Of a DNA stretch of 37,116 nt, positions 27,052 through 31,070 are shown piece by piece. Position 1 is the first letter of the stretch, and each line of letters starts with the position of its first letter. The notes beneath the pieces are model-generated. The model made no database searches, was not told where the DNA came from, and was given only the letters and a program-made list of their open reading frames with translations. Made by a program: the position numbers and the translations under genes. The stretch spans positions 1-37,116 of the forward strand of contig CADBUF010000073.1 of NCBI GenBank assembly GCA_902797795.1, given 5' to 3'. This DNA comes from an uncultured Erysipelotrichaceae bacterium. Its GTDB lineage: Bacteria > Bacillota_I > Bacilli_A > RFN20 > CAG-826.

Positions 27052-29658
27052 ATGGCAAAATTAACAATTATCGATGGAAACTCTTTATTATTTAGAGCCT
27101 ATTATGCAACCGCGTATGCTGGTCAAGAAATAATGAGAAATCAAGACGGCGTACCAACAAACGCAATTTTTGCCTTTAGCAATATGATCAATAAAATTGT
27201 TTCTTCTTTAAAAGAAGGAGAAGGAATAATAGTTGCTTTTGATGCGGCTAAACATAACTTTAGACATGACGCTCTTGAAACCTACAAAGCCAATCGTAAG
27301 CCTGCTCCGGAAGATCTAGTTAAGCAATTTCCAATTGCTAGAGAATTCCTTAATGCCTTTGGTGTTTTCCAATTTGAAGAAGAAGGTTTTGAAGGAGATG
27401 ATATCGCTGGAAGCGTTGCTAAGCTCGCAGAAAAAGAAGGTTATGAAATCTCAATTTACACCTCAGACCGCGACTTCTTACAATTAGTGAGTGATAAAAC
27501 AACAGTCCAAATTATTAAAAAGGGATTATCAGATATTCTTCCTATGACTCCAGAGTTAGTTGAAGAAACTTATGGCTTTAAACCAATGCAAATCATTGAT
27601 TATAAAGGCCTTAGAGGAGATAGTTCGGATAACCTACCTGGAATTCCAGGCGTCGGAGAAAAAACCGCTGTTAAACTCATTCAAGAATATCAATCGTTTG
27701 ATAATATTATTGCCCACGCTGATGAGATAAAAGGTAAGTTAGGAGAAACAATCAAAGAGAATAGTGAAATAGGTCGTATTTCTCGTGATTTAGCCATTAT
27801 CAAGACTGATGTTGAACTGCCATTTTCTTTACAAGATACAGCTTATCACGGCTATTCGTTTAAACTCATTAATGAATTCTGCCAAAAATATGGCTTAAAG
27901 CAATTGATGAATAAGCTATCACCAAAATGGAAACTAGCAAGCGAAGAAAGGTCATCAATAGAAGCTGAGAAAGTTATTTCTTTCGATAATATCGAATTAC
28001 CAGATTCAATTGGTTTATCATTAGATTTTGAAGATGAGGATGATTATTTCAATTCCGAGATTTTTGGACTTGCTATTTCAACTAAAAATAACCACTATTA
28101 CATCCTCTTAGAAGATGCTTTAAAAGATAAAAAACTACTACAAATATTAGCGGATAAAAATATCAAAAAATACTGTTATGACTATAAAGCAATTAAAGTC
28201 GCTTTATCTAACTTAAATATTGAACTAAACGGTTTAGAATTTGATATTTTAATCGCTACTTATCTAATAGATACCACAATTAAAAACAAGGTTGAATCTG
28301 TTTTAAATGTCTATGGTGTTGATATTGAAGATAACAAAGGCGAAGAACTCTCATTGTTCACTAATGAAAACCCAAATAAAACTGCTAAAGTTGCATTTTA
28401 TGCAATTGAATTAGCAGGAAAGATTAAAGCCGAATTAGTTAAAATCAACGCTCTTGATTTATATAATAATCTCGAACTACCTTTAGTAGATGTTTTAGCT
28501 AATTTAGAAATTGAAGGTTTTCCACTAGATGTTAAAGTGCTCGACGAAATGGGAGAAGTTTGGAAAAAGGATGTTAAACAATTAGAACAAGAAATATTCT
28601 CTTTAGCGGGCGTTGAATTCAATATCTCTTCTCCAAAACAACTAGGAGAAATCTTATATGATAAACTCGCCATTATTGATAAAAAGAGTCGTTCAACTTC
28701 TTTTGAAACTTTAAAAGAATATATAGATAAGCATCCAATCATTGCTAAAATCATCGAATATCGTAAATATACAAAACTCTTATCAACTTATGTTGAAGGG
28801 TTAAAAAGTCATGTCTATAAAGACGGAAAAATCCACGCTAATTTTAATCAAGCGCAAACTCAAACGGGAAGATTAAGTTCATCTAATCCAAATTTACAAA
28901 ACATCTCTATAAGAGATGAAGAAGGTAAAATGATTAGAAAAGCCTTCTATTATGAAGATGATAATTATGAGATTTTGTCCCTAGATTATTCGCAAATTGA
29001 ATTAAGAATTTTAGCCCATTTATCTAACTGTGAGAATCTTAAGAAAATCTTTGAAGATCCTAATATAGATATCCACTCTGCAACTGCTCAAAAAATCTTC
29101 CATATTGATGGAGAACCAACTCCACTTCAAAGAAGAAAAGCCAAAGCTGTTAATTTTGGAATCATCTATGGCATCTCTGATTGGGGTTTAGCGGATCAGA
29201 TTGAATGTTCAGTCAAAGAAAGTCGAGAAATCATTAATTCTTTCTATCGAGAATTCCCTGAAGTTAACGATTTCTTTAGAAATATTATCGATAACGCTCT
29301 TAAGGATGGCTATGTATCTACTATGCTTGGTAGAAGAAGATATCTTAGAGAACTTCATGATTCTAATTATCAAGTTCGAGAATTTGCTAAACGAGCAGCA
29401 ATGAACGCTCCAATTCAAGGAAGCGCTGCTGATTTAATCAAAATGGCGATGATCAAAGTTGAAAAGGCCTTAAGAGATAACAACCTTAAAACTAAAATGG
29501 TTTTACAAATACATGATGAGCTTATTTTTAAAGTTCCAGTAGAAGAAAAGGAGATCGCTTATAAGATTATCCAAGAAAAGATGACTAAAGCATTATCTTT
29601 GTCTATTCCTCTCGTAGTTGATGGAGGATATGGAAAATCTTGGTACGATTGTAAATAG
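27052..29658 (+). CDS. polA: DNA polymerase I
   Basis: An 868-residue three-domain Pol I for Okazaki fragment processing and gap repair. The N-terminal 5'-3' exonuclease is intact (IIDGNSLLFRAYY, YTSDRDFLQL, GDSSDNLPGIPGVGEKTA). The 3'-5' exonuclease domain is partly degenerate: LDFEDE resembles DxE, but the last YxxxD motif reads YAIELAG. The polymerase motifs A (LSLDYSQIELRILAHL), B (RRKAKAVNFGIIYGIS) and C (LQIHDELIFKVP) are complete. GAGGAG lies 9 bases before the ATG inside the end of dnaE. It is the middle gene of dnaE-polA-mutM/coaE. Confidence 0.98.
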   Translation: MAKLTIIDGNSLLFRAYYATAYAGQEIMRNQDGVPTNAIFAFSNMINKIVSSLKEGEGIIVAFDAAKHNFRHDALETYKANRKPAPEDLVKQFPIAREFLNAFGVFQFEEEGFEGDDIAGSVAKLAEKEGYEISIYTSDRDFLQLVSDKTTVQIIKKGLSDILPMTPELVEETYGFKPMQIIDYKGLRGDSSDNLPGIPGVGEKTAVKLIQEYQSFDNIIAHADEIKGKLGETIKENSEIGRISRDLAIIKTDVELPFSLQDTAYHGYSFKLINEFCQKYGLKQLMNKLSPKWKLASEERSSIEAEKVISFDNIELPDSIGLSLDFEDEDDYFNSEIFGLAISTKNNHYYILLEDALKDKKLLQILADKNIKKYCYDYKAIKVALSNLNIELNGLEFDILIATYLIDTTIKNKVESVLNVYGVDIEDNKGEELSLFTNENPNKTAKVAFYAIELAGKIKAELVKINALDLYNNLELPLVDVLANLEIEGFPLDVKVLDEMGEVWKKDVKQLEQEIFSLAGVEFNISSPKQLGEILYDKLAIIDKKSRSTSFETLKEYIDKHPIIAKIIEYRKYTKLLSTYVEGLKSHVYKDGKIHANFNQAQTQTGRLSSSNPNLQNISIRDEEGKMIRKAFYYEDDNYEILSLDYSQIELRILAHLSNCENLKKIFEDPNIDIHSATAQKIFHIDGEPTPLQRRKAKAVNFGIIYGISDWGLADQIECSVKESREIINSFYREFPEVNDFFRNIIDNALKDGYVSTMLGRRRYLRELHDSNYQVREFAKRAAMNAPIQGSAADLIKMAMIKVEKALRDNNLKTKMVLQIHDELIFKVPVEEKEIAYKIIQEKMTKALSLSIPLVVDGGYGKSWYDCK

Positions 29659-29660
29659 TT

Positions 29661-31070
29661 ATGCCCGAATTACCAGAAGTAGAGACAGTTAAAAATGTTC
29701 TCAATAAAATCGTGACAAATAAAACGATTAAAAGTATCGATGTCTATCGTGATTTAACGATTGAAGGAGACAAAAATGAATTCGTATCTTCATTAACTGG
29801 AGAAACATTTTTAAATGTATCCAGAATTGGAAAATATCTTATTTTCCACCTCACTAATGACAAAGTCATTATTTCTCATCTCAGAATGGAAGGGAAATAT
29901 TATGAATATCAAGAAAGTGAAAGAGATAGTAAATACGCAAAGGTGGTCTTCCATTTTATAGATAAGACGAAACTTTGTTATGACGATAGTCGCGCTTTTG
30001 GGTTGATGAAATTATCTACTGAAAGTGAATATCAAAAAGAGGAAATGATTAAAAAATTAGGTCCAGAACCATTTGATATTAACGATGTCTCATCGATAAT
30101 TAAAAAAGTAAAAAAGAGTAACAAACCAATCAAGACTACACTACTTGATCAAACTCTAATCACTGGACTAGGCAACATATATGTTGATGAAACTTTATAT
30201 GCTAGTAAAATTCATCCATTAACTCCTGCTAATAAAATTAATAAAGATGAGTGGGAATCAATAATCAATAATGCGAAAGAAATCCTTTCAATTGCCATTG
30301 AAATGGGTGGTTCCACAATTAAAAGTTATCATCCAGGAAAAGATATTGATGGAAATTTCCAAACTAGAATTAAGGTCTATGGACGAAGCGGGGAAATTTG
30401 TCCTACATGTGGACATACATTCCGCTTTATAAAAGTAGGTGGAAGAGGAACAACATTCTGTCCGCTTTGTCAACTTAAAAAGGGAGCACCAATTAATATC
30501 GGCTTAACCGGAAAAATTGCTTCTGGAAAAAGTGTAGCCTTAAACATTTTTAAAGAATTGGGAGCGGCCACTATTAGTAGTGATGAAATCGTTAAGGATT
30601 TATATCAAAAGAAAGAAATCGCCTCTTTAATTGAAAAAAATCTTCATCTAAAATTCAAAGGTAATGTTGTTGATAAAGAGCAATTAAGAAATCACCTTTT
30701 AATTAATATTAAAGATAAGAAGAAATTAGAAAAATTGATTCATCCACTAGTGGAAGAAGAAATTAAAAATTTCTTATCTAAAGAAGCCAATCCAATTAGA
30801 GTGGTTGAAGTTCCTTTGCTTTTTGAATCAAAAGTAGACCACTATTTTGACACAATTGTAGTTATTGATATCGATCAAAAGATACAAAAAGAACGCCTTA
30901 AAAAACGTAATCCGCAAAGTGCTATTTATCTAGAAGAAATTAATAAAACAAATAAAATTGACGAAAATAAAAATAAGGCCACTTACCTTATTAATAATGA
31001 TAATGATCTTGCTTCGTTTAAAAAGGAAATCAAAAGTATTTTTACTGAAGCGAAGGATCGAATATCGTAA
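29661..31070 (+). CDS. mutM-coaE: Fused MutM (Fpg) DNA glycosylase and CoaE dephospho-CoA kinase
   Basis: One open frame of 469 residues. Residues 1-272 are a complete Fpg glycosylase/AP lyase removing 8-oxoguanine: PELPEVETV with the catalytic Pro2 and Glu3, the conserved Lys near residue 57, GLGNIYVDE, and a zinc finger CPTCG...CPLCQ. From about residue 276 it continues without a break as CoaE, which phosphorylates dephospho-CoA to CoA: P-loop GLTGKIASGKS, then SSDEIVKDLY, HPLVEEEI and VVEVPLLFE. Only a few residues separate the finger from the P-loop strand. In Bacilli mutM and coaE are separate neighbours after polA, so loss of the stop between them is the simple origin. It starts 2 bases after polA with no ribosome site of its own. 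The 3' end overlaps dnaI by 29 bp. Confidence 0.93.
   Translation: MPELPEVETVKNVLNKIVTNKTIKSIDVYRDLTIEGDKNEFVSSLTGETFLNVSRIGKYLIFHLTNDKVIISHLRMEGKYYEYQESERDSKYAKVVFHFIDKTKLCYDDSRAFGLMKLSTESEYQKEEMIKKLGPEPFDINDVSSIIKKVKKSNKPIKTTLLDQTLITGLGNIYVDETLYASKIHPLTPANKINKDEWESIINNAKEILSIAIEMGGSTIKSYHPGKDIDGNFQTRIKVYGRSGEICPTCGHTFRFIKVGGRGTTFCPLCQLKKGAPINIGLTGKIASGKSVALNIFKELGAATISSDEIVKDLYQKKEIASLIEKNLHLKFKGNVVDKEQLRNHLLINIKDKKKLEKLIHPLVEEEIKNFLSKEANPIRVVEVPLLFESKVDHYFDTIVVIDIDQKIQKERLKKRNPQSAIYLEEINKTNKIDENKNKATYLINNDNDLASFKKEIKSIFTEAKDRIS

Follow-up and report, generated by a model that had tools for sequence, protein, structure and literature searches.

A lineage-wide MutM-CoaE protein in uncultured Erysipelotrichaceae, most likely a by-product of tight gene packing

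The DNA glycosylase MutM (Fpg) and dephospho-CoA kinase (CoaE) both belong to textbook families, and a protein joining the two has hardly been described in the literature searched. The domain pair is probably listed in domain-architecture databases. CoaE has been reported with other partners: a HAD-DPCK fusion is present in some mycoplasmas (PMC8721197), and in M. tuberculosis CoaE is joined to UPF0157 (PMC2765170). No explicit description of a MutM-CoaE fusion was found in the literature searched, the nearest being a remark in a 2011 review of phytoplasmas, according to which CoaE, annotated as Fpg (formamidopyrimidine-DNA glycosylase), is encoded in all four genomes (PMC3322544).

Here, we have analysed a mutM-coaE fusion gene of an uncultured Erysipelotrichaceae bacterium (Table 1). 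The window, that is the whole stretch of DNA analysed (37,116 nt), is one 37-kb contig from a draft genome of 1.17 Mb, which consists of 78 contigs and is about 86% complete. An earlier note, made from the letters alone, had read one uninterrupted frame at this locus; the frame is indeed unbroken from ATG to stop, neither a stop nor a frameshift is present near position 30480, and the fused reading stands. At its 3′ end the gene overlaps by about 29 nt with a convergent gene, which we take to resemble the helicase loader DnaI. Searching the whole window genome returned a single CoaE locus and a single Fapy locus, both of them within the fusion frame; no second mutM was found, nor the stand-alone second coaE that the earlier note had proposed to look for.

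Table 1. Features of the mutM-coaE locus in window coordinates.
Feature	Position	Strand	Remarks
polA	27052..29658	+	directly upstream; stops 2 nt before fusion gene; conserved neighbour
mutM-coaE fusion gene	29661..31070	+	469 aa plus stop; sole CoaE and sole Fapy match genome-wide
MutM (Fpg) module, residues 1-271: N-terminal glycosylase domain, H2TH domain, zinc finger	29661..30473	+	Pfam/NCBIfam; PDB sequence match 1tdz; model compared with 3jr5
zf-FPG zinc finger with Cys247, Cys250, Cys267, Cys270 and finger Arg262	30390..30473	+	all invariant in 66 fused proteins
Junction LKKGAPIN, 8 residues	30474..30497	+	without ATG; without conserved internal start
CoaE (dephospho-CoA kinase) module, residues 280-451	30498..31013	+	Pfam/NCBIfam; PDB sequence matches 8dv0, 1jjv
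P-loop GLTGKIASGKS of CoaE module	30501..30533	+	Gly284, Gly289, Lys290 invariant in 66-row alignment

Both modules are as complete as they had first been taken to be. The glycosylase comprises three Pfam domains above their curated cut-offs, Fapy_DNA_glyco (residues 1-115, 2.8e-31), H2TH (residues 133-222, 5.5e-28) and zf-FPG_IleRS (residues 244-271, 2.7e-8), and scores 295 bits with TIGR00577 (fpg), above the cut-off; with PF01149, PF06831 and PF06827 all above gathering score it belongs to the Fpg/MutM family, and the MPELPE and CPTCG...CPLCQ motifs are present. The kinase, with its P-loop, matches PF01121 nearly full-length (residues 280-451, profile positions 3-179 of 180, 3.5e-28, 99 bits against a cut-off of 27) and TIGR00152 at 108 bits against a cut-off of 65.6. 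The claim of almost no linker agrees with the eight residues lying between the zinc finger and the first CoaE strand. The MutM half carries the Pro-Glu nucleophile, the beta-hairpin Lys, the H2TH Asn, the finger Arg and the four zinc Cys of Fpg/MutM enzymes; among 66 aligned fused proteins Lys58, Asn172, Arg262, Cys247, Cys250, Cys267 and Cys270 are invariant, and Pro2/Glu3 are found at 90% or more. An AlphaFold2 model of the whole protein has a mean pLDDT of 90.2, a pTM of 0.83 and a pLDDT of about 91 at the junction, the lid region having the lowest confidence within the CoaE half. The MutM part, whose PDB sequence match is 1tdz (1.5e-57), aligns in the model with DNA-bound MutM 3jr5 at a TM-score of 0.94 by target. 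All structure matches listed fall in the MutM part, and the CoaE fold is assigned from sequence matches to solved CoaE (8dv0, 5.5e-18; 1jjv, 6e-18).

The earlier note had left a choice between a recent stop-codon loss and a lineage-wide enzyme; the latter held and the former did not, the fused frame being fixed in the window's family (f1) and in its sister families f2 and f3. Close relatives are thus fused and do not all carry two separate genes. Family f1 is represented by 146 genomes from 35 genera, 134 of which have a CoaE match, and the count was of CoaE matches inside an open frame of 400 aa or more; 131 of the 134 have one. Three genomes depart from this: G120, with 339 aa at the end of a contig, G087, with 363 aa, and G145, where MutM is intact and is followed, out of frame, by a CoaE half that has no P-loop region (G145:C39:2190-3516; L147/L158). 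The disruption in G145 may be a real loss or an assembly fault, and CoaE is perhaps dispensable there. Five further genomes of the family (G024, G052, G059, G068 and G097) have neither a CoaE nor a MutM match, hence mutM-coaE behaves as one unit. All 11 f2 genomes tested and the f3 genomes listed are fused, contig-edge fragments excepted. In the order-level sample f8 is fused as well, mutM and coaE are separate and adjacent in f4 and f6, and they lie at unlinked sites in f5. Further fused cases of the class occur in f12, f16, f25, f26 and f28, several of them among separate-gene relatives. Open-frame length alone was rejected as a sign of fusion, failing at G285, where a frame of 501 aa was found and mutM and coaE are in different frames; the fusions entering the trees were verified by domain position. 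In f22, genus g152 (G474, G477, G433, G440), CoaE matches share frames of 270-397 aa with a partner; these may be the HAD-DPCK fusion known from mycoplasmas.

On a joint MutM and CoaE tree (123 rows) the fused or separate state changes at least 10 times, six of these changes being forced by well-supported (starred) branches, with 11 changes (4 forced) on the MutM-only tree and 13 (5 forced) on the CoaE-only tree; all trees are quick searches, and their counts carry no direction, so that some changes may be splits. Separate genes are clearly seen in G373, which nests within f28, and in a group of G339, G353, G359 and G315 in f16. It seems that the same merger occurred several times in related bacteria. 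When more members of f2 are included in a tree of the order, f1, f2 and f3 group on the fused side, and a starred branch parts them from f4, f6, f8 and the rest, a grouping consistent with one old fusion for the window's lineage.

The gene neighbourhood is conserved. Of the 70 fused loci tested, 69 have polA immediately before the fusion gene and in the same orientation, and across the class separate mutM and coaE genes are mostly side by side, as the earlier note had supposed to be usual. Often the start of coaE lies inside mutM, by 4 nt (ATGA) in f25 and f28 and by about 20-35 nt in f15 and f16, or within about 20 nt behind it; other separate-gene families have gaps of 50-100 nt. In f16 (L117-L120, L087, L090, L094) the separate coaE seems to start inside the zinc-finger codons of mutM, in another frame, with an overlap of about 20-35 nt. 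The mutM stop of f6 falls within the ribosome site of coaE (TAGGAGG), and in the f4 genome G188 the two genes share one frame with a single TAA between them. With such tight or overlapping spacing, one small mutation can join both genes. The resulting junctions are 3-10 residues long across the fused proteins and share no sequence, and it is therefore probable that the modules fold and act independently. Since an ATG is found within the junction in only 3 of 70 fused loci, a separately initiated CoaE product is unlikely. In the window, AAAAAGGGAG near 30478-30487 resembles a ribosome site; it was rejected as a signal for internal re-initiation, as the rest of the junction offers no ATG, GTG or TTG after it and relatives do not preserve it.

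Purifying selection acts on both halves, CoaE being less constrained than MutM, with dN/dS of 0.02-0.13 for MutM and 0.09-0.30 for CoaE among close fused pairs. The P-loop Lys (GK[ST]) and the second Asp of the DAD motif are found in 70 of 70 fused CoaE domains and the Pro of PLL in 69 of 70; most of these domains also have the HP and PLL(F)E motifs. Two other positions, typical for the CoaE family and not strictly defining, differ between the two states: among 70 fused proteins, 42 have Ser for the first DAD Asp and 17 retain the lid Gln, and among 60 separate CoaE proteins 56 have that Asp and 59 that Gln. The window protein has Ser at the first of these positions and Thr at the second, and still scores above the cut-offs of the curated models along the entire domain. 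Given these substitutions, the activity of the CoaE half could be altered.

In an order-level sample of 26 genomes, CoaD was matched in 25, 22 of them above the cut-off including the window genome, and CoaBC reached the cut-off in none of the 26; it was found in control genomes. CoaD and CoaE without CoaBC point to salvage of a phosphopantetheine-like precursor that would be completed by these two enzymes, and the predicted CoaE probably serves as the functional final step of that route. A search with PF00485 for a type I pantothenate kinase gave matches in frames of about 210 and 550 aa that resemble uridine kinases. One such PRK kinase domain, at G000:C74:10219-10809, lies in the frame of about 550 aa that recurs in relatives and may join a uridine kinase to a further domain. 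Most sampled f17 genomes (e.g. L143-L145, L148-L153; 94-99% complete) have a stand-alone MutM and no CoaE match; CoA may be imported there, or another kinase may be in use.

Taken together, we consider it highly probable that the protein is a fixed two-module enzyme that arose as two closely packed genes were joined repeatedly, with modules that fold independently and are both predicted to be active. The ancestral order would have been polA-mutM-coaE, with mutM and coaE adjacent and tightly spaced or overlapping, and an indel at the junction or loss of the stop would have joined them. A glycosylase and a dephospho-CoA kinase would then be translated as one chain with a very short linker, the MutM half excising 8-oxoguanine and Fapy lesions and the CoaE half phosphorylating the dephospho-CoA that CoaD supplies, in a pathway of the salvage type without CoaBC. 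The merger would be old in f1, f2 and f3, with independent mergers elsewhere in the class. Both activities are likely retained, judging from residue conservation, dN/dS and the folding model. Most likely, the fusion is a nearly neutral by-product of tight packing that gives 1:1 co-production, rather than a device coupling repair to CoA. We infer the neutral origin from the variable linkers and the repeated occurrence, and likewise infer both catalytic activities.

Other explanations have to be weighed against this neutral origin. The fragmentation of the draft into 78 contigs might suggest a sequencing or assembly error, or else a private stop-codon loss of recent date in one genome. Yet the same frame is found in well above 100 genomes from several families and in independent assemblies. 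The records of relatives at 66-81% protein identity come from independently assembled metagenome genomes, labelled uncultured Erysipelotrichaceae and bearing RUG isolate names, and the arrangement recurs in them, as it does among the 66 different proteins of the alignment, which rules out both chance and faulty assembly. We put the probability of a recent stop loss or an artefact of assembly at practically nil; the MutM-CoaE protein is a lineage-wide two-enzyme protein. It is very unlikely that the CoaE half is degenerating or repurposed, still folding and binding nucleotide and making no CoA, with the cell obtaining CoA otherwise. Such decay would fit the weaker constraint on CoaE, the first DAD Asp and lid Gln lost from the fused clade at order level, Pfam matches that break off around profile position 145 in many genomes of f1, and the missing P-loop region of G145. 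However, dN/dS stays well under 1, the P-loop Lys, the second Asp and the Pro of PLL are kept almost throughout, and retaining CoaD in a genome that has no other CoaE would make no sense if the final step were missing.

Selection may also have coupled repair to CoA. The tether itself would then serve a function, for example by placing CoaE at the nucleoid, by making oxidative base repair responsive to CoA or dephospho-CoA, or by providing MutM with the P-loop domain of CoaE as an additional DNA-binding or regulatory part. Many genera share the fused state as a fixed trait, f1-f3 show hardly any reversal, fusions recur, and the model is confident through the junction. Nonetheless, the short linkers vary in length and have no sequence in common, tight adjacency by itself predicts repeated fusion, and fixation needs no selection, since splitting the gene again requires a new start and a ribosome site. 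We thus hold a tether selected for function to be very improbable, and find it just as hard to credit that the activity of the partner responds to DNA binding or to the state of CoA or dephospho-CoA, with a link between oxidative DNA repair and CoA supply selected repeatedly in the class.

In many genera of small-genome gut bacteria, a housekeeping repair enzyme has been stably merged with a kinase for a central cofactor, the two having no obvious connection in metabolism. Repeated mergers from one conserved neighbourhood offer a natural experiment on fusion as function versus mere tight packing, and caution against deducing function from fusion links. Moreover, automatic annotation may name only one half of such a protein (cf. 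PMC3322544), and reconstructions of the CoA pathway may therefore miss CoaE.

When compared with known systems, the MutM half resembles Fpg/MutM enzymes (TIGR00577; Lactococcus lactis Fpg 1tdz, MutM 1l1t/1r2y) in its full domain set, N-terminal Pro-Glu and zinc finger, and DNA-bound MutM structures align with the fusion model at TM-scores of 0.92-0.95 by target; unlike them, its chain continues past the zinc finger into CoaE. The CoaE half of the window protein shares with CoaE (TIGR00152; Haemophilus influenzae 1jjv, 8dv0) the P-loop, the second DAD Asp, the LR, HP and PLL(F)E motifs and the lid Arg416, but it is fused to MutM, has Ser for the first DAD Asp and has its lid Gln replaced. The CoaE annotated as Fpg in phytoplasmas suggests the same fused protein, left unremarked, a likeness drawn from the wording of the review, which does not call it a fusion (PMC3322544). 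Human COASY (PPAT-DPCK) likewise holds a dephospho-CoA kinase in one chain with another domain, its partner differing from MutM, and the HAD-DPCK protein of mycoplasmas has another partner too, with CoaE placed C-terminally there as in MutM-CoaE (PMC8721197).
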